DNA of 34,366 nt. Origin: a virus. A program made the position numbers and the translations under genes. This document shows positions 1,210 to 32,668 of this stretch, in pieces. The stretch covers positions 1 through 34,366 of the IMG/VR virus record IMGVR_UViG_3300046542_000485. The stretch is one strand, 5' to 3'. Under the pieces are notes generated by a model. That model was not told the origin of the DNA, did not search any database, and worked only from the letters and a program-made list of their open reading frames with translations. How positions within the stretch are numbered: position 1 is the stretch's first letter; the number at the start of each line of letters is the position of its first letter.

Positions 1210-1755
1210 CTAGGAGGCTGCAATCGCCTTCAGGATCACTTTGATTCCGATCAGCATTGGCGTGCTTTGATTGATGTCTGGCTCGCCAATGATTTTAAAT
1301 CCAAGCTCCTCATAAAATGAGACGGCATTGGGTGCTGCATCCAAGTAGATCCCCTTGATCGGGACTTCTTTGTGGACCCTAGCCGCTTGCTTGAAAGCTT
1401 CCATCAAGATTTTTTGGCCTATGCCCAAACCTTGATAATTCGAATCAACCCCGAGCATCACCAGCCGTATCACAGGTACGCGTGATGGCAAGTTGGTGTC
1501 GTCGATGCCCTTCTGAGCCATTACCTTGTCGATGTCAGACAGAGTGATCGTACAGAAACCAACAACCTCCATTGTCGGTGCAATCGCTCCAATTGCGTTA
1601 ATATTCTCGCTTTTAAGAGCGCGTTTAAGACTGCCCTTATAGTACGAGTCAATTACACTGACTCCACAACTAAACGCCTTGGAATATTTGTACTTTTCGA
1701 AATTGGCAAGCAGGTTGCTGTCAATTTCACATGCCGGCGTCTCTTCTGTTCTCAT
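1210..1755 (-). CDS. tacT: GNAT acetyltransferase toxin (TacT-like)
   Basis: A 181-residue Gcn5-type N-acetyltransferase. The acetyl-CoA loop is visible as Q108-GLGIG-113, and Y148 in the FYEELGF segment is placed like the catalytic tyrosine of TacT/AtaT toxins. The N-terminal stretch FSCGVSVIDSYY is also typical of the family. Toxins of this type acetylate the amino group of aminoacyl-tRNA and stop translation (family knowledge). The gene overlaps the upstream antitoxin gene by 29 bases, so translation is coupled. The start is the first ATG of the frame; a later start cannot be excluded. It is lower in G+C than the structural genes and reads as prophage cargo that may stabilise the lysogen. 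Confidence 0.85.
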   Translation of the reverse strand: MRTEETPACEIDSNLLANFEKYKYSKAFSCGVSVIDSYYKGSLKRALKSENINAIGAIAPTMEVVGFCTITLSDIDKVMAQKGIDDTNLPSRVPVIRLVMLGVDSNYQGLGIGQKILMEAFKQAARVHKEVPIKGIYLDAAPNAVSFYEELGFKIIGEPDINQSTPMLIGIKVILKAIAAS

Positions 1756-2289: not shown

Positions 2290-3141
2290 TCAGCCCGCCC
2301 TGATCAACCCCCGCCCAACCCACTCCGCCACCTGCGTAACAACGGCGTTTCCGGCAGCGAAAGCCTCCGCAAGGTTGGCCGCATCCAGTCCGAGGCAAAA
2401 CCCATCATCCTCAGACGCTCGCTGCCGCTCAGCCATCTGATCCCATCCGTGCGGGTGAGCGACGAAAGTGGTACAGCCCATAGTGATCTGAGATCCGGCT
2501 TTGTTTGCCAATAGAGTATTGGCAGCCCAGGCATCCGCTGGGAGTGGCCACTGGATCGCGCGAGACGCTGGAGGTATTGCATCCACTGGCGCGGCGTCAG
2601 CCAGGAACTCGATGGGGGGCATTCGTCGATAACCTGCGACCAGGAATACTCGGCGACGCTGCTGGGGGACTCCGAAATATTGAGCATTAAGCACTCGCCA
2701 AAATCCCACATACCCGCAGTCCGCAAGGGCCCGGATGACTGTTTCAAAGTCACGGCTATCGTTGACAGCGAGCAGGTTAACGACGTTCTCAAGGACCACC
2801 CAGCGAGGTTGAATTTCTTTGAGGATTCGTATGACTTCCCAGAACAGGCCGCTGCGTGCGCCGCGCAGCCCGCGGCTGTCTCGGTTGCTTTCCCGGCAAC
2901 CGGCGACACTGATGTCCTGACAGGGAAATCCGGCGGTAATGACATCGACGGGGCTGAGGTTGTGAGCGCCGCACTGGCGCACGTCTTCAAATTGCTGTGC
3001 ATGGGGAAATCGATCGGCAAGCACAGCCCGATTGACCGGGTTGAGCTCAACTTGCCAGGCGCTGCGGTATCCCGCGTTTTCAAATCCGACATCAAAACCT
3101 CCTATACCTGCGAACAGGCTTCCAATGGTGGGCTTTTGCAT
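2290..3141 (-). CDS. dcm: DNA (cytosine-5) methyltransferase
   Basis: A 283-residue C5-methyltransferase. Motif I is FAGIGGF (10-16), the catalytic loop is GFPCQD with Cys74, motif VI is LENV (117-120), motif VIII is QRRR (161-164), and a motif X-like GNAV lies at 264-267. The target recognition region is very short, so this is a compact phage form. It probably methylates phage and host DNA to escape restriction (inference from family). The start lies inside com, overlapping it by 40 bases, as mom overlaps com in phage Mu, and a hairpin at 3138-3165 would cover the start codon. Oddity: motif IX is not seen in this frame, while a neighbouring frame encodes a motif IX-like stretch near 2370-2440. 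Confidence 0.88.
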   Translation of the reverse strand: MQKPTIGSLFAGIGGFDVGFENAGYRSAWQVELNPVNRAVLADRFPHAQQFEDVRQCGAHNLSPVDVITAGFPCQDISVAGCRESNRDSRGLRGARSGLFWEVIRILKEIQPRWVVLENVVNLLAVNDSRDFETVIRALADCGYVGFWRVLNAQYFGVPQQRRRVFLVAGYRRMPPIEFLADAAPVDAIPPASRAIQWPLPADAWAANTLLANKAGSQITMGCTTFVAHPHGWDQMAERQRASEDDGFCLGLDAANLAEAFAAGNAVVTQVAEWVGRGLIRAG

Positions 3142-3346: not shown

Positions 3347-4318
3347 TTACTGGGTTATCGGCTTTAGTTTTGCCGTTAGCGCTTTGGCCTGCGCGGCGCC
3401 GGCGGAAAAGTCCCCGGCGTTGTCCGGTGGTGGAGTCGGTCCGTGTTTATGAATGGCGATCGCCGTATTCATTTGTTCAACCAGGTCGATCAGATCGCAC
3501 AGCACCTGCAGCACGTTTACTGCTTCGGAGCCCAGCCATGTTTTGGGCGCCTGCAGGCGTTGTCCGATCGCGGTGACACTTTCGCGTAACCCCTGTATCC
3601 GCTCCTGCATATCGCCGCCGACGGTCGCGTTGTGCTTCTGGCCGACCACCAGGTTCAAATCCCTGCCAGTGGCCATGTGCAGATCGTCGACAGCTGCCAG
3701 GCTGGCCGATCCGCCCGACAACAGCTTAAGCGCACCCAGCGCCTCGATTGTTTTGATCCCTCCCACGGACTCCGTGCTGTGGTCGTCGACCTCTATGGTG
3801 CTGCTCTGGTAGCGCTCGGCATTGTCCAGCGCTTCCACCTGGCGCTCGCTCGCTCGATCTGTGATCTTCGCGTCTGTCTGGCGGGTCCAATTGCCCTCAG
3901 TGTCGGCGCGCTGTTGGACGGCGTCGCTGTGTTGCCATAGCTGATCGCCTTTCGGCACCTTGGGCAGGCTGAGGCCGTGAGGCAGGATCTGTAAAATAAA
4001 CGGTTTGTTCGGCAAGCCGTAGGCGAAGCTAATCACCACCGTGGTGCCTTCCTCTGGAAAGGCATAAAACCCCATCTCGGTACCGGCGCCGGGCACCGGC
4101 AAGGCAACGCCCAGCAGGTGGGGTAGCTGCGGGTCTGCCTCGCCGTTTGGGCCCAGCACCTCCAGGTCAACGCCATAGCGCGGGCGGAAGTCGTCGCACA
4201 TGCCAGCGCCTGTCGGAGGATCAGCCACGGCCAACACTCGGGCAAAGCGCGGTAGGTGATAGGCGCCGACCAGTTCAGGAAAGCGCCGCTCAACGATGCG
4301 GGTTACGGCCTCTTCCAT
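3347..4318 (-). CDS. V: Baseplate assembly protein V / tail spike
   Basis: A 323-residue protein of the gpV / gp45 / T4 gp5 OB-fold family. Residues about 25-110 hold the typical segments for the OB domain (RFARVLAVADP, RYGVDLEVLG, FYAFPEEGTTVVISF, NKPFILQIL). The part after about residue 180 is rich in short repeating Gly/Asp/Val strands, as in the beta-helical needle that pierces the outer membrane. It is longer than P2 gpV (about 210 residues), which fits the HP1-like branch. It overlaps the upstream hub gene by 16 bases. Confidence 0.78.
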   Translation of the reverse strand: MEEAVTRIVERRFPELVGAYHLPRFARVLAVADPPTGAGMCDDFRPRYGVDLEVLGPNGEADPQLPHLLGVALPVPGAGTEMGFYAFPEEGTTVVISFAYGLPNKPFILQILPHGLSLPKVPKGDQLWQHSDAVQQRADTEGNWTRQTDAKITDRASERQVEALDNAERYQSSTIEVDDHSTESVGGIKTIEALGALKLLSGGSASLAAVDDLHMATGRDLNLVVGQKHNATVGGDMQERIQGLRESVTAIGQRLQAPKTWLGSEAVNVLQVLCDLIDLVEQMNTAIAIHKHGPTPPPDNAGDFSAGAAQAKALTAKLKPITQ

Positions 4319-4995
4319 TTGAGCACCATCTGCGTGCCGGTCAGCGTCACGGAGGTGATGCGCTGACCTTGGTTGATTGTTGCGCCGGGGCGCAGCCCGG
4401 GCAGGGCGGTCATCTCGGCACTTTGGTTGCCCTGATAGCTGTCGAATAGCTCGACCGGCAGTTGCAGCGCGGGCCTGGTGCCCCAGTAGCTATCGGCCCA
4501 GCTACCTACGTACACCTCGCCGTTGCCTTGCTGGTGCCACAGGAAATCGGAAATGTTGTACACCTGGGCCAAGCTATCCAATGCTTGAATTCCACCACCG
4601 AGGGAATAGAAATACGGTGCTCTGACCTTGGCATAAGCCACGTCCGGCACCCGAAAGCGCAGGCCGGTCAATCGGCTGACCTCGTTCAGTACTGTGTTCA
4701 GGTCGACATGACGCAGCGCCATGGGCAGGGGATAGCTCAGGATGGCTGCCAGCTCCCGACAGAACATCACCTGTTCCTGGCTATTGGCTGTTGTACAGCG
4801 TTCGATATAGCCGACGAAGTGGCGCTGCAGCGGGCTGTTGTTGTAGCCCAGATCCAGCGTCACCAGCCCGCGCTGCGTCGTTGAGGATTTGACCGTGAAG
4901 CAGGCTCGCCCCGGGTTGCGCAAGTCCAGACGCACCTCGTCGCTCACCAGGTCAAAGGGTTGGCCGTTGATGCTCAACACTTTGTGCAGCTTCAT
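4303..4995 (-). CDS. Baseplate hub-like protein
   Basis: A 230-residue protein directly upstream of the spike gene. The segments DLVSDEVRLDLRNPGRACFTV, GYIERCT and LSYPLPMALRHVDLNTVLNEV with a following LTGLRF stretch resemble the fold of phage hub proteins (P2 gpD / T4 gp27 type), and position supports this: the hub and spike are normally adjacent. Family membership was judged by pattern, not by search. Start ATG overlaps the previous stop codon (ATGA). Confidence 0.55.
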   Translation of the reverse strand: MKLHKVLSINGQPFDLVSDEVRLDLRNPGRACFTVKSSTTQRGLVTLDLGYNNSPLQRHFVGYIERCTTANSQEQVMFCRELAAILSYPLPMALRHVDLNTVLNEVSRLTGLRFRVPDVAYAKVRAPYFYSLGGGIQALDSLAQVYNISDFLWHQQGNGEVYVGSWADSYWGTRPALQLPVELFDSYQGNQSAEMTALPGLRPGATINQGQRITSVTLTGTQMVLKWKRP

Positions 4996-9376: not shown

Positions 9377-10544
9377 CCAGCACCACCTCCAGGCTTTCGA
9401 TCCGCGGAATGTTCAGCTCGGACAAAATGTCGGTGTTGGTGAACTGCAGCGATTCGATTCGTGGGAACCGCTCGTGCAGCTCCTCGCCCAGGCGGCTGAA
9501 CGAAAATCGCGACTGGGGATAGGTCAGGGTGGGCTGGTAGTCGCTGGTGGTGCTTTCGCGGAATGCGGCGCGGATGAACTGCTCGACCTGAGTCTGCAGT
9601 TGGGTGCGTTGCTCGGTACTCAGATTCGACCGTGGCCACAGGCTCAGGCGGATGGCGTGCTGGGTCTCTGGCATGACCATCACCAACAAATCATCCCCAT
9701 GACCGTGGTTGCCGCCTTCGCGAATAAAAGCGTTGATCAGTTGCAAATACTCGTCCGCCGGCACACCGGCCTCGAACAACACAAAGGCATTGGCGCTGCC
9801 CGGACCACGTGGAGCCCCGTGCTCGAAATACACACCATCCAGACGCACGCCGGGGAAGGACGCAATCATGGCGCGGTAGACCGCGTCAGTATGGTACTGA
9901 TTGACCGCTGAAAACTGGTTGCGGGTGCGCAGCCGTAACTGATCGTTGGGCTCCGAGTCAGCCCCGGGCTGACTCAGCCAGTTGTCAGCGTTCACCACCT
10001 GGACAATCCCCGGTACCGGCACCGGCAAAATCGCGTAATACCCCGGTGCCAGATTGTAGCCACTGCCGGCTTCGATCGCCTCAACCGGGATGGCCAACTG
10101 TGATTCACCGTCACCAAAGATACCGGGCAGGGTGGTTTTCAACTCGTAGATATGGCTATTGATCGCCGCCGATTGCACCCGGGTACCGGCGGGCACTTCC
10201 AGCGCTCCGGCCGCTGTGGCTCGAGTGAACAGCAGTTCACCCTGGGCTTTGGTCGAGGTCTTGCGCTCGACATTCACCGCCCAGGCCAGCATGTCCAACC
10301 AGCCATCCACGGCGGTCCTGACGAAAAAGTTCGGCAGCACGGTGTCGACGATGAACTGCAGCAGCCACAGCACTGGCCGGGTCACGAGGGCCGTGATGAT
10401 TCGCCAGAACGGCGACCAGGCACTGGTGTTGCTGATCTTGCTGCCCTGCTCGGCAGCCACTTTTTCCCAGGCTTTTTTCAGTTCGGCCTCGGTGGTCGGG
10501 ATGCCGGCCTCACGCAGCGCCTCTTTAAAATCCACGTCGCTCAC
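9369..10544 (-). CDS. J: Baseplate J family protein
   Basis: A 391-residue baseplate wedge protein. Visible family landmarks are ARATAAG-type strand LLFTRATAAGALEVPAGTRV (about 110-130), EAIEAGSGYNLAPGYY (about 153-168) and the central AVNQYHTDAVYRAMIASFPGV segment, all typical of Baseplate_J / T4 gp6. It builds the baseplate periphery. The start overlaps the stop of the DUF2590 gene (ATGA). Longer than P2 gpJ (302), matching the HP1-like type. Confidence 0.82.
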   Translation of the reverse strand: MSDVDFKEALREAGIPTTEAELKKAWEKVAAEQGSKISNTSAWSPFWRIITALVTRPVLWLLQFIVDTVLPNFFVRTAVDGWLDMLAWAVNVERKTSTKAQGELLFTRATAAGALEVPAGTRVQSAAINSHIYELKTTLPGIFGDGESQLAIPVEAIEAGSGYNLAPGYYAILPVPVPGIVQVVNADNWLSQPGADSEPNDQLRLRTRNQFSAVNQYHTDAVYRAMIASFPGVRLDGVYFEHGAPRGPGSANAFVLFEAGVPADEYLQLINAFIREGGNHGHGDDLLVMVMPETQHAIRLSLWPRSNLSTEQRTQLQTQVEQFIRAAFRESTTSDYQPTLTYPQSRFSFSRLGEELHERFPRIESLQFTNTDILSELNIPRIESLEVVLDA

Positions 10545-10858
10545 ACCGTTACCTTCATATGGCCAAATTTCACCGTGGTTGCAGTCACCAGGTACCTGCC
10601 GGGTACCTCGGGCAGGATTCGCGCCGTGCCGGGCACCAGGCGTTCGTCCGCCTCCACCAGTAGTTCCATCTGTTGCCGACAGTCGCGCTGACGCAGCGGA
10701 TCGCGCTCGGCCACCAGGGTCACCAACAAACCGCTGTCGCGGATCATGTGCGCGATGTCTTGGGCAATGCTTGCGCGATCGTCCACCAGCAATGGCTGGT
10801 GAGACGGGTCCAACATCAGGTCATTGCCGGCAATCAGCAGGTCGACGTATTCACTCAT
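10541..10858 (-). CDS. DUF2590 baseplate protein
   Basis: A 105-residue protein between tape measure and baseplate J. The segments VDLLIAGNDLMLD, DRASIAQDIAHMIRDSGLL and RQQMELLVEADERLVPGTARI match the DUF2590 pattern, which resembles gpW/gp25 baseplate wedge proteins in size, location and the IAQDI-helix. A gp25-like wedge role is inferred. Overlaps on both sides are four bases. Confidence 0.72.
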   Translation of the reverse strand: MSEYVDLLIAGNDLMLDPSHQPLLVDDRASIAQDIAHMIRDSGLLVTLVAERDPLRQRDCRQQMELLVEADERLVPGTARILPEVPGRYLVTATTVKFGHMKVTV

Positions 10859-12759
10859 CCTGCCATCTCCATCAGCCCTTCCAGCTCGTGGGTGGTCATG
10901 GGTTTACTGGTGTGGATCTCCACTTTTTCCACGTGGGTACCCCGGTTTTGCGTGGCGTTGTTCTGGATACTGGTGAGCAAACCGCCTGGCGGTACCGCCG
11001 TGGCTCGGTTGGGGGACAGTGATGGGATGGCGGCGTTGATGGTTTGCTGGGCACGTTGCGCGGCGCTGGCCTGCTCGGCAATGTTCATGGTTGCGGTACC
11101 GCCTTGCAGCGCCGGCAGTTCGGCAAAACTGGTGTTGATTTCCACGCCGGGGATCATGTTCAGCAGAGTAATCACACCCTTAAAGGCGTTTCCCAGCAGG
11201 GCGAAAGGCGAAAGGTTGGCGAAGACCAGCAACAGATCTTCCCAGCCGCTTTTGGCTCCGGTGACGACACCCAATACTTCGCTCAGCCAGGTGATGAAGC
11301 GAAGTCCCATATCAACCAGCTGTTCCAAGCCTCGCCACAGGACCTGCACCACGGCCCACATGATTTTCAGGCTCAGTATCACAGGGGTGATCATCACCAA
11401 GAGGGCCTGGAACCAGGCGGTTTGGCCGAACTTCATTTTCAGTTCATCCCACCAGAAAATGGCGGCGCCGATGGCCACGACCAGCGCCGCGATCCCAAAC
11501 ACGATCAAGGCCAGCGGGCTGAAAAGTAGTGACAACACACCATACAACCCCGCGAATACGGTCAGGCCCGCGGTAGCGGCTACCAATCCCAGTACGCCGA
11601 GGCTGATGTAGCCCATCCAGCGAGCCACATTGGGAAATAACTTGATCCACCGTTGAAATGTTGCGGTGGCCACCGTTAACCGATCGATCAATGGATTGAG
11701 TACCGGCAACAGGATCTGACCGAAGGAAATGCGCACCGCCATGATGGCGCTGCCGAAACGTTCCCATGGATCGGCAATGGCGCTGGCCATCTTTTCGGCC
11801 TGCTCCAGGCCTTTGACTTTGCCTAATTGGTCGATGCTGTTCCCCAAGTCGCCCACTTTTGGAAGAAGTTGGGTGATTAACCCCATGGCCTGTTTGCCGC
11901 CAAACGCCTTGCTGATCAGGTCGGTTTCCGCTGCATCCAACTCGCCAAACCTGGTGTTGAGCTTGCCCAGAATGTCCAACATCGGCAGTAGGCGGCCTTG
12001 GCTGTCGGTAAAGGACAGGCCGAGTTTTTCCTGAGCACCGTAGGCGCCGGCCAGAAAGGCCCGATACTTGGTTCCGGCCTCGCCGCCACTCATCGTCGCC
12101 TGCAGCGTGCCAAGGATGGCCATCTGTTCGGCCGCACCTATTCCGGCGGAGGCCGCACTGGCGCCCAGGGAGGTAAAGGCATTACTCATGCCTTGCCCGG
12201 TTGTCTTGAACATCTGCACCGCTGTGGCGGTCTGCCCAGTCAATTGCTCGACCCACGCGCCTTTGCCCATGGCGTCGGCTTGTTTCTGGAAGATCCCGTA
12301 CATCGTTCCGACGTAGTTGGTAATGGTGCCGGCATCAGCCTTGGTGGCCTTGGCCAATAGGTTGGATGCCCCGGTGAAAGTCGCCAGTTGGGTGCCGGTC
12401 AATCCGGCGATGGCGCTTTGGATGTCATAGGCCGAGCTGACAAAGGCGGTGGCGCTCTCGCCGTAGGCGATGCTGAACTCCAGCGACTTTTGATTGAGCA
12501 GGTCCAAGGCGTCCGCTGCCACGCCCAAGCTTTGAACTTCGCCAAGTGCCGCGTTCTGCCCCAGAGCGGGTGCCATCGCGGTTTTTAGCGTGAACGCCGC
12601 GCCAACCATTCCCGCCATGCCGACACCCATCTGCTTGATGCCGTTCTGGCCCTTTGTCGCCAAGTCGCTGAACCCAGCTTTCACCTTACCCAGGGGTTGG
12701 CTCACGCGGTCAACCAAGCGCAGGATAAAGTCGAGTTTGCTGGTGGCGGAGGTGCTCAT
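10855..12759 (-). CDS. T: Tail tape measure protein
   Basis: A 634-residue tape measure protein. The start at 12759 is chosen for its AAGGA ribosome binding site and because the family begins with a SKLDFILRLVDRVSQPL-like helix. The N-terminal 350 residues hold the TP901-type core (IQSAIAGLTGTQLATFTGASNLLAKATKADAGTI, AYGAQEKLGLSFTD). Residues about 390-460 carry hydrophobic membrane-spanning helices, as usual for proteins ejected into the host envelope. Length sets tail length: 634 residues predict roughly a 90-100 nm tail (rule of about 0.15 nm per residue). Located after the frameshifted chaperone pair, as in lambda, P2 and HP1. Confidence 0.85.
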   Translation of the reverse strand: MSTSATSKLDFILRLVDRVSQPLGKVKAGFSDLATKGQNGIKQMGVGMAGMVGAAFTLKTAMAPALGQNAALGEVQSLGVAADALDLLNQKSLEFSIAYGESATAFVSSAYDIQSAIAGLTGTQLATFTGASNLLAKATKADAGTITNYVGTMYGIFQKQADAMGKGAWVEQLTGQTATAVQMFKTTGQGMSNAFTSLGASAASAGIGAAEQMAILGTLQATMSGGEAGTKYRAFLAGAYGAQEKLGLSFTDSQGRLLPMLDILGKLNTRFGELDAAETDLISKAFGGKQAMGLITQLLPKVGDLGNSIDQLGKVKGLEQAEKMASAIADPWERFGSAIMAVRISFGQILLPVLNPLIDRLTVATATFQRWIKLFPNVARWMGYISLGVLGLVAATAGLTVFAGLYGVLSLLFSPLALIVFGIAALVVAIGAAIFWWDELKMKFGQTAWFQALLVMITPVILSLKIMWAVVQVLWRGLEQLVDMGLRFITWLSEVLGVVTGAKSGWEDLLLVFANLSPFALLGNAFKGVITLLNMIPGVEINTSFAELPALQGGTATMNIAEQASAAQRAQQTINAAIPSLSPNRATAVPPGGLLTSIQNNATQNRGTHVEKVEIHTSKPMTTHELEGLMEMAG

Positions 12760-20329: not shown

Positions 20330-22369
20330 ATGCCTTATTCAATCGAAGTCAAAGACACCGCTAAACGCTTGTACTTGCGCCGCTGCAAGCCACGAGAAAT
20401 CCAGGCGCAACTCAAGCTGCCCAATATTCGAATCGTCTATTACTGGATCGCCCGGGGCGGTTGGGACGAGATGTTGACGGATGAGGAGCCGCTGACGGCG
20501 GTCAGCCGGCGCATCACGTTGCTCCTGGAGAGACCAGGCGCCTTGGGCAAAGGGGATCTAGACGAACTCGACCGTCTCACCACCGTGCGTGAGCGACTGT
20601 TGAAACAGTGCGCCAAGCCAAATGGTCGTGCGAGCGACCCGGCGCAGACGGACCAGGATCCGAGAAAGGATAAAGGTGACCGGGAAGCGCAAAGAAAGCG
20701 TAAGTCCAAGCCGGTTAAAAACGATATTTCGCACCTGACGGAAGTGGACTTTCTCGACAAGTTCATCAGCAAGCTGTTTGGCTATCAGAAAGAACTGCTG
20801 GCTGCCAAACAGAATCCGCTGACGCGTCGGATTCGCAACGTCCTGAAGTGTCGCCAGTCGGGCCTGACCTACTACTTCGCCGGTGAAGCATTCATGGACG
20901 CGGTGCTGACCGGTGACAATCAGATGTTTCTGTCGGCTAGCCGGGCCCAATCGGAACTGTTCCGCGGCTACATCGTAGGTTTTGCCCGCGAGTGGTTCGG
21001 CATCGAGCTGACCGGCAATCCGATTACGCTGAGCAACGGCGCCGAGCTGCGCTTTATGAGCACCAATAGCAGCACCGCCCAAGGGCCGCACGGGCACGTC
21101 TATATCGACGAGTACTTCTGGATCCGTGACTTCGACAAGCTCAGCAGTTTGGCCGGGGCCATGGCCACCCATAAAAAATGGCGAAAAACCTACTTTTCCA
21201 CCCCCAGCGCGGTCAGCCATCAGGCCTATCCATTCTGGACCGGCGACACCTTCAAGCGCGGCAAACACAAAAAGGCCAGCTTGCCATTCCCGAGCGAGCC
21301 CGAGTTGCGCAAGGGCGTGCTCTGTCCCGATGGCCAGTGGCGCAAGATCATCACCATTCACGACGCCATTGCCGGTGGCTGCGACCTGTTCGACCTCGAG
21401 CAGCTGCGGCTGGAAAACTCCGATGATGTGTTTGACCAGCTCTACCTGTGTCAATTCATCGATAGCAGTCAGAGCGCGTTCAACCTGGCCGACCTGGAGC
21501 GCTGTTATTCGGACCTCTCGCTATGGTCCGACTTCAACCCCGACCCGAAAGCCGATCGCCCCTTCGGCAACGCGCCAGTTTGGATCGGTTACGACCCCAG
21601 TCGCACCCGCGACGACGCCACCTGCGTGGTGGTCGGGCCGCCACTGGAGCAGGGCGGCAGGTTCCGGATCCTGGAGAAACATTCCTGGCGCGGACATTCA
21701 TTCACTTACCAAGCGGCCCAGGTCAAAAAAATCTGCGAGCGCTTCAACGTGCAGCACATCGGAATCGATGTCACTGGCGTGGGTTACGGCGTATTCGACC
21801 TGGTGCGCGACTTCTTCCCCCGGGCCACGCCGATCCACTACAGCTTGGAGACCAAAAATACCCTGGTGCTCAAGGCACAGGACACGATCCAGGGGCGCCG
21901 CATCGAATGGGACGCTGGTTGGAACGACATCGCCGCGGCCTTCCTGACCATCAAACGCGGCGCCACCAGCAGCGGCCAGATCACCTACAGCGCTTCCCGC
22001 ACCGATGCCACCGGCCATGCCGACATCGCCTGGGCGGTCATGCACGCGCTGGCCAATGAACCCCTCAACGTCAACAAGAAGCGGCGCAGCCGCTGGTCAA
22101 CTCTCGAAGGTAGTCATGAACGATCCCAAGCCCCAGACCCGACCGGTCAATCAGGACCAACCCGCGCCGCACAAAGTGCAGGCATTCAGCTTCGGCGCGC
22201 CCGAGTCGGTGCTGGCCGGCAACATGGGCGAGTACCTGGGCGTGTTCGCCAGCGACGATGGCCAGATCTATACGCCACCGGTATCGCGTACTGGCCTGGC
22301 CAAGCTGCTGCGAGCCAACGCGCACCACGGCACCATCCCGCGTTTCAAACGCAACCTGCTACTGCGTGA
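20330..22369 (+). CDS. P: Terminase large subunit, ATPase P
   Basis: A P2 gpP homologue. N-terminal helix-turn-helix (about 8-45, AKRLYLRRCKPREIQAQLKL), Walker A-like KCRQSGLT (173-180), Walker B VYIDEY (257-262), then the nuclease domain with Asp422 (YDPSRTRDDA), Asp480 (GIDVTGVGYG) and Asp565 (GHADIAW). It powers DNA packaging with gpM. Homology ends near residue 595, exactly where the portal start codon lies; P2 gpP is 590 residues. The remaining 84 residues are Arg/Gln/Ala-rich, come from out-of-frame portal sequence (254-base overlap), and are probably an artefact of a lost stop. Confidence 0.88.
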   Translation: MPYSIEVKDTAKRLYLRRCKPREIQAQLKLPNIRIVYYWIARGGWDEMLTDEEPLTAVSRRITLLLERPGALGKGDLDELDRLTTVRERLLKQCAKPNGRASDPAQTDQDPRKDKGDREAQRKRKSKPVKNDISHLTEVDFLDKFISKLFGYQKELLAAKQNPLTRRIRNVLKCRQSGLTYYFAGEAFMDAVLTGDNQMFLSASRAQSELFRGYIVGFAREWFGIELTGNPITLSNGAELRFMSTNSSTAQGPHGHVYIDEYFWIRDFDKLSSLAGAMATHKKWRKTYFSTPSAVSHQAYPFWTGDTFKRGKHKKASLPFPSEPELRKGVLCPDGQWRKIITIHDAIAGGCDLFDLEQLRLENSDDVFDQLYLCQFIDSSQSAFNLADLERCYSDLSLWSDFNPDPKADRPFGNAPVWIGYDPSRTRDDATCVVVGPPLEQGGRFRILEKHSWRGHSFTYQAAQVKKICERFNVQHIGIDVTGVGYGVFDLVRDFFPRATPIHYSLETKNTLVLKAQDTIQGRRIEWDAGWNDIAAAFLTIKRGATSSGQITYSASRTDATGHADIAWAVMHALANEPLNVNKKRRSRWSTLEGSHERSQAPDPTGQSGPTRAAQSAGIQLRRARVGAGRQHGRVPGRVRQRRWPDLYATGIAYWPGQAAASQRAPRHHPAFQTQPATA

Positions 22370-23135
22370 CTTCCTGCCCTCGGGCGGTTGTAGCGCGCAG
22401 ACGATGGGGCGGGCAGCGCTGGATTTTATGGTGTTTGGCGAGGCGTACTTCCAGCGCAAGGCTAACATCATTGGTCAGGTGCTGGAGCTGGAGCACCTGC
22501 CCGCGCTGAACATGCGCTGTAAGGTTGGTGGTGGCTTCGTGATGCTGCTGCGTGACGGCAAGCAGCTGCATTTCCGCGATGACGAGATTGAACACGTCAT
22601 GGACTACGACGTGGAACAGAACATCTACGGTGTGCCTGATTACCTGGGTGGTATGCATGCGCTGCTGCTCAACGAGTCTGCCACCTTGTTCCGGCGCCGG
22701 TATTACAACAACGGGGCCCATGCCGGTTTCGTGTTCTACACCAATGACCCAAACCTCACTGAGGAGGACGAGAACGCGCTGAAAAGCCAGATCGGCTCCA
22801 GCAAGGGCGTGGGCAACTTCCGTTCGTTGTTCGTGAATATCCCAGGTGGGAGTGACAAGGCAATCCAGATCATTCCCGTGGGTGATATCGCGACGAAAGA
22901 TGAGTTCGAGCGGATCAAGAACATCACCCGTAACGACGTGATCGCCGCCTGGCGAATGAACCCGGCGCTGGCCGGGGTGATGCCGGAGAACGCAGCGGGG
23001 TTTGGGGATATCGAGAAGATTGATCGGGTGTATACGAACAACGAGATTCGGCCGATCAGTCAGCTATTTTTGCAGATTAATCAGACATTGCGTGGAGATC
23101 GACGGGTTGGGTGGTGGGAGGCTGATCAACGGTGA
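22116..23135 (+). CDS. Q: Portal protein Q
   Basis: A 339-residue P2-family portal. The ATG at 22116 (GAAGG six bases upstream) begins the homologous part; earlier in-frame codons are the out-of-frame P gene. Landmarks: FSFGAPESVLAGNMGEYLGV, YTPPVSRTGLAKLLRANAHH, FMVFGEAYFQR, HVMDYDVEQNIYGVPDYLG, YYNNGAHAGFVFYTNDP, and RNDVIAAWRMNPALAGVMPE. It forms the 12-mer vertex through which DNA enters. Confidence 0.92.
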   Translation: MNDPKPQTRPVNQDQPAPHKVQAFSFGAPESVLAGNMGEYLGVFASDDGQIYTPPVSRTGLAKLLRANAHHGTIPRFKRNLLLRDFLPSGGCSAQTMGRAALDFMVFGEAYFQRKANIIGQVLELEHLPALNMRCKVGGGFVMLLRDGKQLHFRDDEIEHVMDYDVEQNIYGVPDYLGGMHALLLNESATLFRRRYYNNGAHAGFVFYTNDPNLTEEDENALKSQIGSSKGVGNFRSLFVNIPGGSDKAIQIIPVGDIATKDEFERIKNITRNDVIAAWRMNPALAGVMPENAAGFGDIEKIDRVYTNNEIRPISQLFLQINQTLRGDRRVGWWEADQR

Positions 23136-23458
23136 GCGATGGAGGTTGTTGGAACAGCGAAATTGCACTCGGCTGTGGGTCACCAATTCCCGCCGGTAGC
23201 CGAAGGCAGCAAAGAATCAGGAGAGGACTATCGCTCTAGTCATTGGGATTGATACTGTCTTTCATCAGGGTTAGCATTCGGCTTGGCGAATTGCCATCAT
23301 CAAGGGGTAGTTGTCAGGTCTAAGCTTAGTAATGACGCGAAGTTTTTGGCCCCAGCCTCACTATCGCGCAAGCAGTCCGCTTTACTGCCTTATGATCCGA
23401 ACTTCTGGTGCATTTGTTGCATTAGCTTTATAAATTAAATGGGGCTTAAAGTAGTCGC
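23136..23458. other. Gene-free stretch between portal and DUF4145 gene
   Basis: No credible gene or clear terminator hairpin is visible. G+C falls from phage-like to AT-rich across it, with the drop near 23400. It marks the left border of an inserted cargo gene, and the promoter of that gene should lie in its last 60 bases; TATAAA at about 23429 is a possible -10 without a good -35 partner. Confidence 0.4.
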
Positions 23459-24331
23459 ATGACAAAAAATACCGTTTGGAATTATTGTGTAAGTTGTAGG
23501 CAGAAGACTAATCACGATATTGAGGGGACTCACGAGCACCAAGGACATCCGGATGACTACTCTTGCATGGTTGAGCATTCAGTAGTTAAATGCCGTGGTT
23601 GTAATACTGTTTCGTTTCGTCAAGTTTTTCATGATTATGAAGGCGCCTACCCTGGAGAAAACGACGAGTGGGTTGTACCCACTGAAGTTGAGACATATCC
23701 GAAAGCAAAAACGGGGAATCTTAAAGCGACACATTTGCCAGATATAGTTGCAAGTATTTATCAAGAAACTTGCGATGCGTATCGAGATGGCGCTTTGACT
23801 CTGGCGGGAATTGGTTTTCGTGCAACTATCGAAGCGATCTGTAATGATCAAGGGATTTTAGGAAAAGAACTGAGTACTAGAATCAATAATCTAGCCAGTA
23901 AGGGGCTGATTTCTAAGAAAGACTCAACTCGCTTGCATTCTATTAGATTCATGGGGAATGATGCCGCTCATGACATAAAGAAGCCGTCGCAAAAAACTCT
24001 TCAGGCGGCTTTAGTTATTGTTGAGCATCTTATAACGACTGTCTATATTATTGATCGAGAATCTGAAGGGAAACTTGATGCGGTTATTGAAGAGTATTCG
24101 AAGTTCGAAGAGTTGCTTGATAAAAAGTTAAAAGATTTTGCTGTTGGTGAAGAGCATCCATTGCCCAAATTTTTAGGAAAGGATACGAGGCTGATAAGTG
24201 GATCAACAAAGAAGATCGAAGATACGTTAAACACAAAAATCGGGAAGGGTGAATATCTAAAGCTTAAGTTCGGTAAGAAAGAAAAATATCTAGATTCGAA
24301 AGAAGAGTTGCAGCATTACGTTGTCGCCTGA
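23459..24331 (+). CDS. DUF4145 protein with zinc ribbon, candidate defence cargo
   Basis: A 290-residue protein. The N-terminus has two cysteine pairs (Cys10-Cys13 and Cys45-Cys48) forming a likely zinc ribbon. Residues about 88-195 fit DUF4145: LPDIVASIYQETCDAYRDGA, GIGFRATIEAIC, then RFMGNDAAHD with Arg163 and His171. The C-terminal 90 residues are lysine/glutamate rich. DUF4145 domains occur with restriction and other anti-phage genes (family knowledge), and the Arg/His pair recalls HEPN-type nucleases, though spacing differs from R-x4-6-H. The gene is AT-rich, unlike its neighbours, and sits between portal and ogr, a cargo position in P2-like phages. It likely has its own promoter and stays on in lysogens. 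Function not shown. Confidence 0.75.
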   Translation: MTKNTVWNYCVSCRQKTNHDIEGTHEHQGHPDDYSCMVEHSVVKCRGCNTVSFRQVFHDYEGAYPGENDEWVVPTEVETYPKAKTGNLKATHLPDIVASIYQETCDAYRDGALTLAGIGFRATIEAICNDQGILGKELSTRINNLASKGLISKKDSTRLHSIRFMGNDAAHDIKKPSQKTLQAALVIVEHLITTVYIIDRESEGKLDAVIEEYSKFEELLDKKLKDFAVGEEHPLPKFLGKDTRLISGSTKKIEDTLNTKIGKGEYLKLKFGKKEKYLDSKEELQHYVVA

Positions 24332-24448: not shown

Positions 24449-24490
24449 GTCCTACATTTTGTATGGCAAAATAGGACCCGTTTGGGTCCT
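24449..24490 (+). promoter_or_regulatory. Two overlapping, mutually exclusive hairpins before ogr
   Basis: Hairpin A: GTCCTA (24449-24454) plus TTTTG (24457-24461) pairs with CAAAA (24467-24471) plus TAGGAC (24472-24477), loop TATGG, two-base bulge. Hairpin B: AGGACCC (24473-24479), loop GTTT, GGGTCCT (24484-24490). They share bases 24473-24477, so only one can form. The ogr start lies 13 bases beyond B. This resembles an attenuator or a translational switch; no T-run follows B. Confidence 0.45.
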
Positions 24491-24503: not shown

Positions 24504-24761
24504 ATGCGGGTGTATTGCAAGTGCGGAGAAAAAGGGCGGATCGCCTCGCGGGATGATTTGTCGCCGGACTTCGCGAAACTCTATTGCCAGTGCACGTCAG
24601 TGACCTGCGGCCACACCTGGGTGGCCAATCTGACCTTTTCCCACACCCTGAGCCCATCGGCCCAAACGTTCGACCGACTGCTGTTCGAGCGCCTGCGCAC
24701 ATTGTCCCGGGCTCAGCAACGGGATCTATTTGATCAGTTGGGTGCGGTGCCGATTTCGTAG
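24504..24761 (+). CDS. ogr: Ogr/Delta-like late transcription activator
   Basis: An 85-residue protein of the P2 Ogr / P4 Delta family. Start at 24504 chosen because the family begins MRVxC. The zinc finger has Cys5-x-Cys7 and Cys30-x4-Cys35 (CQCTSVTCGHTW), followed by LTFSHTLSPSAQTF. In P2 the first pair is Cys-x2-Cys, so the one-residue spacing here is unusual. It would bind upstream of late promoters and recruit host RNA polymerase through its alpha subunit. It converges on the next gene and overlaps it by 28 bases. Confidence 0.82.
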   Translation: MRVYCKCGEKGRIASRDDLSPDFAKLYCQCTSVTCGHTWVANLTFSHTLSPSAQTFDRLLFERLRTLSRAQQRDLFDQLGAVPIS

Positions 24762-28793: not shown

Positions 28794-31481
28794 TCAGGCT
28801 TTTTTGAACAGCCAGCAGTTAATGGTTCGGCGTTCAATCCGGGAGTAGGCTTTTCGGGTCTCCAGGAACTTGTAGGTGGTGCTTTGGGGAAGGGCGCGTT
28901 GCAGCTGAGCCCGCGTGAGAACTTCCTGACCGGCTTTGCGGCAGACTTCCTGGAAGTGCTCGATGTTGATGGCCACCACACCCCGCTCGGCGCTGTGATT
29001 CAGGGTTTCGTGAATCTCTTCCCGATCGCCGTCGGCGTCACTGATCTTCACCACTCGCTCATTGAGGTAGTGATAGATCTGCCAGAAGGTGGCCGCGTCG
29101 GGATGCTCCGATCGGCAGCGTTGCTGACGAACGATTGCACGCTGCTCCAGGTGCTTGGCCAGGCTTTCCATGTTGGCGTCTGTCCAGTCCGGGAACAGCG
29201 CCTGAGTGGCGTAGGCGGCTGCCAACACTTGGGCATGACAGGTGACGATGCGAGCCTCTGTAATCGCGCCAACGGCTTGCAGGCGCTGTTCAAAACGCGG
29301 GAAGGCGTCGAAATAGCGGGTCAACCATTCCTGTTCGAATGACAGGCAGCGGCGCAGGTAGCCCCCCAAGACCTTGGCGTCCATAGCTTTGAGCCGGTCA
29401 GCGAGTGGTTTAAGGTCCAGCGTGTGATGGTCCTTTGTCGCGTGCAGCTCCACGATGCGTGAGAGCGTCGCCTCAGAGCTGTCCACGCTGTTGTTTTGTG
29501 AAATGCCCAGCGCGCCACGCCAGAACGTACTCCGCGTTTCGTTGCCAGTGGTTTTGGCACCGGTGACCCTGAGGGTCGCGTGGTAGTCGAACAGCCTTTT
29601 CAGTTCGTCCCAGTTGAACTGCACCGTGACTTTGCGCCCCTGGCTGTCGGTGGACTCTTTGTCCGATTCGATCAGGATCACGGGCAGGTTGCTCACATCA
29701 GCGAACGAGCGTGACAGACCGATCGCACTGGCGCCTGCGCCGCTGGGTTGTATCCCTTCGTAGTTTTCCCGACCGGTGAGCCGCCAGAGAAAGCGTAACA
29801 AGGTGGACTTGCCTGCCCCGGGTTTTCCTGTGAACTCCAGAAAAGGGAAGGACGCCTGCTTTTCGCCGATCTGCTGGACGAAGTACGTCGCGGTCCACCA
29901 GGCCAAGATAGCCAGGCCATTGAGCCCGTTCACAGCGAGGAAGTCTGAGAACCATTCTGGGTCGAAGTCCTGACCACGCTCCAGTGTGAAATTGGCCAAA
30001 GTGGTCTTGACGCCATTGCCGTTGATATCAATGAAACCATGGCTATTGACCGGCAGTTCTTTGCCTTGGTGAAAGCCGAAGGTGGGGTAGCAATAGAGCC
30101 CACAGCTTTCGTCATAGCCCACAAATGGCAGGCTACGCACGGTGCGCACGGCGCGGTGTTCGTCGTTGAGCCACTTGGCCTTGAGCATGGCCAGCACCGC
30201 TTCACCGCCTTCGAAGTTGCCACCCGGTGTGTGCTCGAGCAGCGAGCGGGCGAATCCCCGTGGGTCGGTGATGGCGTTGGGGGACAGCGGCGCCTTGCAA
30301 CTGCGGCTCTTGTCAGGGAACTTGAAGTCGAAGAAGTAGCGTTGCTCGCTGGTGACGATGTCCTTTTCCAGGTATTCCAGGTTGGGGATGCAGTTGGCCA
30401 CCTGTTTGATCTTCACGTTTTTGATGAAGATCTCGCGGTTGCCATCGAGCTTGTCTTCGCCCAGGTCGGTAGTCAGATCGCTCTGGTGAACCTTGGCCGA
30501 GTACAGACGGTTGCGAAACTCCATCAGGAAAAACGGTACCGGCCGGCGCAGGTACATCAGGTAGGCCAGTTTGTTGGTGTTTTCGGCGGTAAACAGCCGG
30601 CCCTGGTATTCGGCCTCGGCCATGAACACCTGGTCCAGTTGGCCGTCTCGGTACACGTCGTCCCAGTCGCGCTCGCCGGCGAGGGCCACCCAGCCGATTT
30701 CCTTTTGATCGCGGATCCGGCGCAAGTATTTTGGAATCATCAGGTGCCCGGCCGGGTCATCATCCAGGCCAATGACCCAGGTGATGGACTTGCCTTTATG
30801 CAGCTCGATCAGGTTCCAGGGGAAGTTGTTCGCCGAGATTGAGGCGACGGCCTTGAAACCAGCCAGCCACAAGGCGATGGCGTGGAAAATTCCCTCGACA
30901 ACGTAGATGCGATCGCCTTTTTCGATCGTCATTCCGGGTGGTGTCCAGCAGTCGGCCAGGTAGCTCATACCCTTTTTGATGCCGGCTTTTTTGCCGCCAT
31001 TGGCTTTCACGGCCGTCGCGTCTATCAGGCGCTCCCAGTGACCATCGCACAGCGGGAAGCGCACGGTGTCGGCCCATTGGCCATCCTTGAGCTTGCGCCG
31101 ACCTTGGGTGTACCAGCCTTGCATTTGGCTGATGTCGAACCCGCGGTTGCGCTGCAGGTAGGCGTCGGCCGTGGCGTTAGGGTTTTCCTCGGTTTTGGGA
31201 AAGCGCTCACTGAGGTTTTCGAACAGGTAGCTGTAACGCTCGCGGGTTTTTTCCTCGTATTGGCATTGGTTGAGCCGGTTGCACTTGAGTTGAAAGGGCT
31301 GGGCCCGAGCGATGTACACCGTACGTTCGCCGCACTTGGGGTTGGGGCACTTGCCCTTCTGCAGGTACTTGGTGCCGATGTCTTCGAAGTCGAGCTGGGT
31401 GTCGTGTTCCAGGGCCTCGACAACTTCCTTGAGGTAGATGTCGTCGAAAAACTTCTGATCGAGTTTTCTGCGCGAGGTCAT
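28794..31481 (-). CDS. Primase-helicase (zinc, TOPRIM and P-loop domains)
   Basis: An 895-residue replication protein. A zinc-binding domain (Cys45, Cys50, Cys67, Cys73) comes first. The TOPRIM core has VVEGIFHAIAL with Glu196 and GLDDDPAG with Asp240-Asp242. The helicase part has Walker A GKPGAGKST (552-560) and a second acidic strand (LPVILIESDKE, about 608-618). This resembles P4-alpha or T7 gp4-like primase-helicases. It replaces the rolling-circle endonuclease gpA of P2 and implies theta-type replication with its own origin. The start shares a base with the Cox-like gene stop (TAATG). Confidence 0.85.
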   Translation of the reverse strand: MTSRRKLDQKFFDDIYLKEVVEALEHDTQLDFEDIGTKYLQKGKCPNPKCGERTVYIARAQPFQLKCNRLNQCQYEEKTRERYSYLFENLSERFPKTEENPNATADAYLQRNRGFDISQMQGWYTQGRRKLKDGQWADTVRFPLCDGHWERLIDATAVKANGGKKAGIKKGMSYLADCWTPPGMTIEKGDRIYVVEGIFHAIALWLAGFKAVASISANNFPWNLIELHKGKSITWVIGLDDDPAGHLMIPKYLRRIRDQKEIGWVALAGERDWDDVYRDGQLDQVFMAEAEYQGRLFTAENTNKLAYLMYLRRPVPFFLMEFRNRLYSAKVHQSDLTTDLGEDKLDGNREIFIKNVKIKQVANCIPNLEYLEKDIVTSEQRYFFDFKFPDKSRSCKAPLSPNAITDPRGFARSLLEHTPGGNFEGGEAVLAMLKAKWLNDEHRAVRTVRSLPFVGYDESCGLYCYPTFGFHQGKELPVNSHGFIDINGNGVKTTLANFTLERGQDFDPEWFSDFLAVNGLNGLAILAWWTATYFVQQIGEKQASFPFLEFTGKPGAGKSTLLRFLWRLTGRENYEGIQPSGAGASAIGLSRSFADVSNLPVILIESDKESTDSQGRKVTVQFNWDELKRLFDYHATLRVTGAKTTGNETRSTFWRGALGISQNNSVDSSEATLSRIVELHATKDHHTLDLKPLADRLKAMDAKVLGGYLRRCLSFEQEWLTRYFDAFPRFEQRLQAVGAITEARIVTCHAQVLAAAYATQALFPDWTDANMESLAKHLEQRAIVRQQRCRSEHPDAATFWQIYHYLNERVVKISDADGDREEIHETLNHSAERGVVAINIEHFQEVCRKAGQEVLTRAQLQRALPQSTTYKFLETRKAYSRIERRTINCWLFKKA

Positions 31482-32068: not shown

Positions 32069-32668
32069 ATGAGCAAGACAGATGCGGAAAGTCGTGTTGT
32101 AACCACCTATTGCCTAACTGGCAGTTTTGCTTCTGGTACTCGCCGTGATGTTGCGGCGGTGCTGGAGCACATGGGTTCCAAGGTGGTCGAGGACTTGAGT
32201 GGCAATGTAGATTTTTTGTTGGTTGGGGCAAAGACGGAGTCAGGCAATAGCACCGTCCAATCGGCACTCGACTTTTTGTATCGAGGTCATCGCATCACTC
32301 TGTTACATGAAGGTCATTGGTTGGAGTGGATCGGGAGTGACCAGGCAGCCACGTCCTTACTTCCGCAGGCCAAAACGCTTGACGATGCCGGGGCGTTCAA
32401 GCGCCCACCGAGCAAGGCCAAAAGAGTTTTGTGGGAAGGGGCGCATATGGTTCGGTGCCAATACCGCAACGCTAAGGGTGAAGAGAGCGAACGGGATGTG
32501 CGACTTCAGAAGGTCACCGGTGAGAGTGACGGCCAGCCAGCGGCGCTGGTTGGTTACTGCATGCTTCGCAAAATGAACCGAACGTTCAAAGCGGCCAATG
32601 TGGTGTCGTGTGAGTTGATCGACGATCAGCCAGATAGCGAGCTGCAGGCGGTTTTATCTCGCCTATGA
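32069..32668 (+). CDS. BRCT and WYL-like domain protein
   Basis: A 199-residue protein. Residues about 13-88 form a BRCT domain: [39 protein letters not shown], and Trp84 in the last helix. Residues about 127-185 resemble a WYL fold: [49 protein letters not shown] binds DNA ends or phosphopeptides, WYL binds nucleic acid ligands in regulators (family knowledge). Between C and int, co-transcribed with both (ATGA overlap with int). A regulator of induction or a defence factor are both possible. GGGAG ribosome binding site. Confidence 0.72.

Follow-up and report, generated by a model that had tools for sequence, protein, structure and literature searches.

What is a single AT-rich gene doing between the portal gene Q and ogr of a P2-like phage, and could it defend a lysogen against other phages? 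We addressed this question in a 34,366-nucleotide stretch of viral DNA from an IMG/VR record (hereafter, the window), whose source phage is P2-like, with a portal 70% identical to the portals of Pseudomonas P2-like phages. The AT-rich open reading frame (hereafter, the cargo gene) that a preliminary description placed between Q and ogr is indeed there, and it is foreign by composition: its GC at third codon positions (GC3) is 0.35, compared to 0.74 for Q, 0.72 for P, 0.70 for ogr, and 0.76 for the primase gene (Table 1). The start codon of ogr is probably the ATG at 24504. The same description gave the gene its own leader, and this stands in part. The 323 bp upstream (23136–23458) have no counterpart in any locus that we fetched; a promoter within them is unproven because a scan that picked out TTGATA-17-TAGCAT at 23249 found 5 sites against 2.8 ± 1.7 expected, a count not clearly above chance. 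A terminator scan returned nothing clearly exceeding chance, and the 3′ flank showed no unusual folding (z −0.6).

Table 1 Coordinates of the cargo gene, the domains of its product, and other features of the window.
Feature	Position	Strand	Basis
C5-cytosine methyltransferase, 283 aa, tail-end slot	2290..3141	−	Pfam DNA_methylase, E 7.3e-51; PADLOC MTase_II
Portal gene Q, left border of the slot	22005..23135	+	phrog_68, E 1.6e-123
Leader brought in with the insert	23136..23458	+	No counterpart in fetched loci
DUF4145/HEPN cargo gene	23459..24331	+	Single ORF, 290 aa; Pfam, phrog_1305, and PADLOC matches
N-terminal zinc ribbon, C10-x2-C13 ... C45-x2-C48	23486..23602	+	Four Cys invariant in 16 homologs; also in PD-T7-4 and other relatives
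HEPN-fold domain (DUF4145), residues 91–204	23729..24070	+	AlphaFold model, fold matches
R163-F-M-G-N-D-A-A-H171, putative HEPN active-site motif (R-x7-H), end of HEPN helix 3	23945..23971	+	Invariant in 16
Conserved C-terminal domain, residues 205–290, possibly winged-helix-like	24071..24328	+	Alpha-beta-alpha-alpha-beta-beta; weak winged-helix matches
ogr (Ogr/Delta zinc finger activator), right border of the slot	24504..24761	+	Ogr_Delta, E 8.5e-12
Primase-like replication gene, far side of the P2 hotspot #1 interval	28794..31481	−	phrog_1139, E 8.2e-211

Sequence comparison indicates that the cargo ORF encodes a selected protein under purifying selection. Against its 57% identical homologs, pN was 0.29 and pS 0.87–0.89 (saturated), and the close homolog pair L012/L016 gave a dN/dS of ~0.18. 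We aligned 16 sequences from Gamma-, Beta-, and Alphaproteobacteria, Desulfurivibrio, Campylobacterales, Bacteroidetes, and Gemmatimonadetes, in which the homologs were 34–57% identical to the window protein, and 35 columns were invariant across phyla. The idea of a passenger gene that now does nothing, or of an ORF that is decaying or arose by chance, would suit the sporadic distribution and foreign composition, but it is already contradicted by the conservation of the gene, in the form of strong purifying selection, the invariant columns, and reading frames that stay intact in prophage remnants, and we consider it extremely improbable. A tblastn search of the phage collection found no close relative of the cargo protein, and NCBIfam gave it no assignment.

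The cargo protein matches the Pfam family DUF4145 (PF13643) with an E-value of 2.5e-16 and 60 bits, against a gathering cut-off of 23.1, and phrog_1305 covers its residues 2–201 (E 6.9e-32). In an AlphaFold model (mean pLDDT 78, pTM 0.47), a beta-rich ribbon at the N-terminus is followed by a helical core and then, at the C-terminus, by an alpha/beta unit. While a sequence search of solved structures gave a best E-value of only 0.33, the modeled core (residues 91–204) superimposed on the HEPN protein AF0298 (2hsb) with Z 13.2 and an rmsd of 2.9 over 113 aa; its 23 best PDB matches were all HEPN proteins or HEPN homologs, and the first unrelated fold appeared at about Z 7.3. The model thus indicates that residues 91–204 adopt a HEPN fold, and DUF4145 has been assigned to the HEPN superfamily (PMC3710099).

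Both the zinc ribbon and the DUF4145 core with Arg163 and His171, as proposed in the preliminary description, were confirmed: C10, C13, C45, C48, R121, E125, and the R163-FMGNDAA-H171 block are invariant across the 16 aligned sequences. In the published description, the HEPN RNase motif, R-x4-6-H, lies where helix 3 ends, and helix 2 contributes an acidic residue (PMC3710099). In our model R163 and H171 fall in the helix formed by residues 153–170 and the loop that follows it, and E125 in the helix of residues 113–130, positions that agree with the published placement. The spacing in the cargo protein, R-x7-H, is wider than R-x4-6-H, which makes catalysis likely rather than certain, and the residue after the arginine is phenylalanine instead of a polar one. 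Other HEPN domains matched the core with Z 11.5–11.9 (MntA-HepT), 8.7 (Csm6), and 8.0 (AbiV). The closest folds are HEPN toxins that are paired with MNT antitoxins, a relationship that, along with persistence in decayed prophages, would fit a role as the toxin in a toxin-antitoxin pair or addiction system that stabilizes the prophage. Neither an MNT gene nor any other conserved partner adjoins the gene in the window or across its homologs, however, and one homolog is a one-gene cassette (in L011), so that we view an addiction role as very unlikely.

The C-terminal residues had been described as a lysine-rich tail, a view that we abandon. Although the last 85 residues contain 16 lysines and one arginine, these are offset by 17 acidic residues (D/E), and residues 205–290 are conserved among homologs and yielded a pLDDT of 88 when modeled alone; the charge balance and the confident fold of the model argue against a merely lysine-rich, disordered tail. 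The topology of this domain fits a winged helix, and its fold matches were mostly winged-helix proteins, with weak scores: the best had Z 6.2 and an rmsd of 5.5 over 77 aa, and none of the listed matches exceeded a Foldseek probability of 0.47. We read residues 205–290 from the model as a conserved folded domain, possibly of the winged-helix type. Z-alpha nucleic-acid sensor domains were among its best fold matches, also with weak scores (Foldseek 0.33–0.47, Z 5.6) that were tied with those of many other winged helices; a Z-alpha identity finds no support beyond these scores.

An arrangement of this kind could also belong to an RNA-binding regulator whose HEPN domain is non-catalytic, the role proposed for MtlR, or to a host-fitness gene unrelated to phage defense. 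The ribbon and the winged-helix-like domain of the model suggest nucleic-acid binding, the R-x7-H spacing is non-canonical, and some homologs lie in metabolic surroundings. We nevertheless think such a role unlikely: R163, H171, E125, and the motif's GN are invariant, which sets the protein apart from degenerate HEPN families, and no metabolic gene accompanies it constantly. The gene is also patchily distributed and mobile.

The position of the gene was examined by comparison with relatives that share the portal. In 79 of 80 portal-related viral contigs ogr follows Q, and in 66 of the 79 scored relatives the gap between them is 33–148 bp, that is, empty; the other 13 have gaps of 527–4795 bp, filled with unrelated genes that differ among relatives. 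The insert of the window, ~1.3 kb, lies upstream of a conserved TTGTRTGGCAAAATA block (~24458–24472, just 5′ of ogr) that the empty-slot relatives retain. One relative (L039, 9844–11610) holds a 588-aa RT-Toprim retron protein in the slot (PADLOC RT-Toprim_I-C, E 5e-229), which supports the Q–ogr slot as a defense site. Elsewhere the slot is filled by a nucleotidyltransferase and a pentapeptide-repeat membrane protein (L028, 9811–11579), by short unknown genes in some other relatives, and by a three-gene insert encoding proteins of 497 aa, 263 aa, and 268 aa, the last with DUF5677 (L026, 9677–12789); this last insert had no PADLOC match and is a candidate for an uncharacterized defense locus. 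A YidD-like ORF, GC-matched to the phage, occupies the slot at 4718–5239 of L031 and also in L030, L038, L041, and L048.

In E. coli P2-like phages the Q–A interval is a known anti-phage hotspot (PMC9122126; PMC9519451). The cargo gene shares what characterizes this P2 hotspot #1, a place in the portal-to-replication interval and interchange with other, often defensive, genes, and the earlier suggestion of cargo at the P2 portal/replication hotspot is well supported by these comparisons. Pseudomonas-type P2-like phages appear to use the Q–ogr interval as a slot for defense cargo, like the E. coli P2 phages.

The nearest homologs (57% identity; L012, L016, and L099) all lie outside the Q–ogr slot: in related P2-like prophages they stand past a baseplate-V-like gene, at the tail end. 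This baseplate-V-like gene is 70% identical to window positions 3347–4318, and the tail-end slot that holds a DUF4145 homolog in the three prophages holds a methyltransferase in the window. In this methyltransferase, the match to the MTase profile is confined to the first 170 residues, which may reflect truncation or a C-terminus of unusual type. The methyltransferase gene is adjoined by a GNAT acetyltransferase gene (1210–1755, minus strand) in an AT-richer end region (GC 0.46–0.52), and this region with its acetyltransferase and methylase genes is likely a second cargo stretch. The integrase gene of the window is directly preceded by an ORF (32069–32668, plus strand) whose 199-aa product matches BRCT and WYL weakly. 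Two of the three prophages, L012 and L099, are remnants in which the DUF4145 ORF is still intact. In L012 (8942–9802) and L016 (2722–3582), a co-directional gene for a 286-aa membrane-protein-like product lies directly 3′ of the homolog; it is missing from the window and is possibly an accessory gene.

Homologs were also found well beyond these prophages. Three more viral contigs carry homologs of 44–47% identity among tail or head genes; that of L123 adjoins a gene-D-like ORF, ~2.3 kb from a type II restriction-modification/Vsr cassette (REase, E 7.6e-129; MTase, E 2.8e-174; Vsr), and those of L122 and L124 are among tail and head genes. In Pectobacterium (L002) the homolog lies 3′ of a recombinase module, 4 kb from a homolog of P2 Tin (40% identity, E 3e-51), in Alteromonas (L011) it forms a one-gene cassette within an integron array of repeated attC-like elements, and in Shewanella (L006) it lies between two copies of a 133-bp repeat that are 94% identical. 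Other surroundings are ordinary, with a hut operon adjoining the homolog on a Bartonella plasmid, an FAD oxidase gene near that of L009, and trigger factor/ClpP-like genes near that of L008. Of the 195 relatives of the L012 genome, just 6 had any match; the gene is patchily distributed and mobile. Homologs are therefore not confined to metabolic loci, since many are phage-borne, lie in cassette arrays, or adjoin recombinase or defense genes.

A PADLOC scan of 95 neighbors of the non-Pseudomonas homologs matched 40 families, and each of the 25 families listed was matched by a single member; the matches assigned to a locus were Tin in L002 and an Aga helical-REase in L007 alone. We do not claim from this neighbor count an enrichment of defense genes near the homologs. 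Near the homolog of L004, on an integrase-bearing contig, a 527-aa protein (10475–12055) is probably the source of a DUF6119 match (E 1e-135) among the scanned neighbors and had no PADLOC match. DUF4145 relatives on enteric plasmids (L105–L107; 25–28% identity) keep the ribbon, and we left them out of the functional argument because L105 and L107 are without R163.

At least six phage contexts other than the window carry the gene, and it might serve the prophage itself instead of giving broad host defense, by superinfection exclusion of P2-like relatives or by counter-defense that shields phage RNA or DNA. Genes of the P2 hotspot can act on close P2 relatives (PMC9122126), and phrog_1305 is labeled "DNA binding protein". 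We judge this rather unlikely in view of the homologs outside phages (integron array, plasmid, recombinase island), the strictly conserved active-site-like motif, and a profile search that gave no resemblance to known anti-defense proteins.

We favor, with moderate confidence, the interpretation that the cargo gene is a lysogenic-conversion ("moron") gene, a single-gene PD-T7-4-like anti-phage system of a P2-like prophage. This defense reading is based on conservation, the HEPN model, the hotspot position, exchangeable cargo, mobility, the company of defense genes, and a PD-T7-4 architecture; counting against it are the low similarity to PD-T7-4, the R-x7-H spacing, the phenylalanine after the arginine, some ordinary loci, and the lack in the window of the gene that neighbors the L012 and L016 homologs. 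Beyond the presence and conservation of the gene, the scheme that we propose draws on HEPN biology. A lysogen would make the cargo protein from its own leader and its putative promoter, and the ribbon, the winged-helix-like C-terminal domain, or both would probably bind either nucleic acid or some phage product, which upon infection by another phage would release or direct the RNase. The HEPN endoribonuclease, probably a dimer with an active site of E125, R163, and H171, would then cut host or phage RNA, so that translation would halt and phage production end, with protection in the manner of abortive infection.

A bolder version, which we consider doubtful, has the C-terminal domain and the ribbon act as a dedicated sensor of phage nucleic acid (e.g., double-stranded or structured RNA) that activates the HEPN RNase within one polypeptide. 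If so, the protein would be a self-contained sensor-effector type of defense, undescribed for PD-T7-4. Mechanistic work can start from defined residues: the cysteines C10, C13, C45, and C48, the putative catalytic residues E125, R163, and H171, and the domain 205–290.

The closest known system is PD-T7-4, a one-gene defense of E. coli that was recovered by selecting experimentally for protection from phage (Vassallo 2022, PMC9519451). The PADLOC PD-T7-4 profile matched the cargo protein with 31.6 bits (E 2.5e-8, positions 16–155 of 211), profile-profile comparison of the two families gave an hhalign probability of 92% (E 5.9e-7), and identities were 17–21%, which suggests that the cargo protein is a distant PD-T7-4 relative. 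Like PD-T7-4 (PDLC04109), it is encoded by a single gene on mobile DNA and combines a CxxC...CxxC N-terminal ribbon with a DUF4145/HEPN core in which R-x2-GN-x3-H has the same place and spacing. By this analogy it probably works like PD-T7-4. Unlike PD-T7-4, it has 290 aa instead of about 211 aa, with a further conserved domain of ~85 aa, and the cargo gene does not overlap an integrase gene, as PD-T7-4 often does (two true members overlap or abut one). We did not file it as PD-T7-4 because it is longer and scores far below full-length true members, which reach 230–332 bits (relatives of the Pectobacterium genome). The preliminary view that a single-gene defense is plausible is well supported by the comparative evidence. 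"New" holds only in part, as the ribbon and DUF4145 are known together from PD-T7-4, from which the cargo protein differs by the extra C-terminal domain.

Other known families share parts of this arrangement. The phrog_1305 family, whose label is putative, has the ribbon and HEPN core on phages, but is a 226-position family without the C-terminal domain. BxaP, an anti-T4 gene product, has an N-terminal DUF4145 in a gene with shown anti-phage activity (PMC10799925); it differs in being BREX-associated and in a C-terminus likened to a HEAT domain, and the part of its description available to us mentions no zinc ribbon. P2 tin and old in the Q–A interval (PMC9122126) share the slot between portal gene Q and the replication gene, but belong to other protein families, and in the phage group of the window the cargo lies on the Q side, between Q and ogr. 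HEPN toxins (MntA-HepT, MNT-HEPN) and the HEPN domains of Csm6 and AbiV share the predicted fold of residues 91–204 (Z 8.0–13.2), but are controlled by a partner or ligand, have R-x4-6-H, and are without the ribbon and winged-helix arrangement. Set against these systems, the cargo protein would widen the PD-T7-4 type (zinc ribbon plus HEPN), validated as a defense but open in its mechanism, by a mobile subfamily with an added domain.
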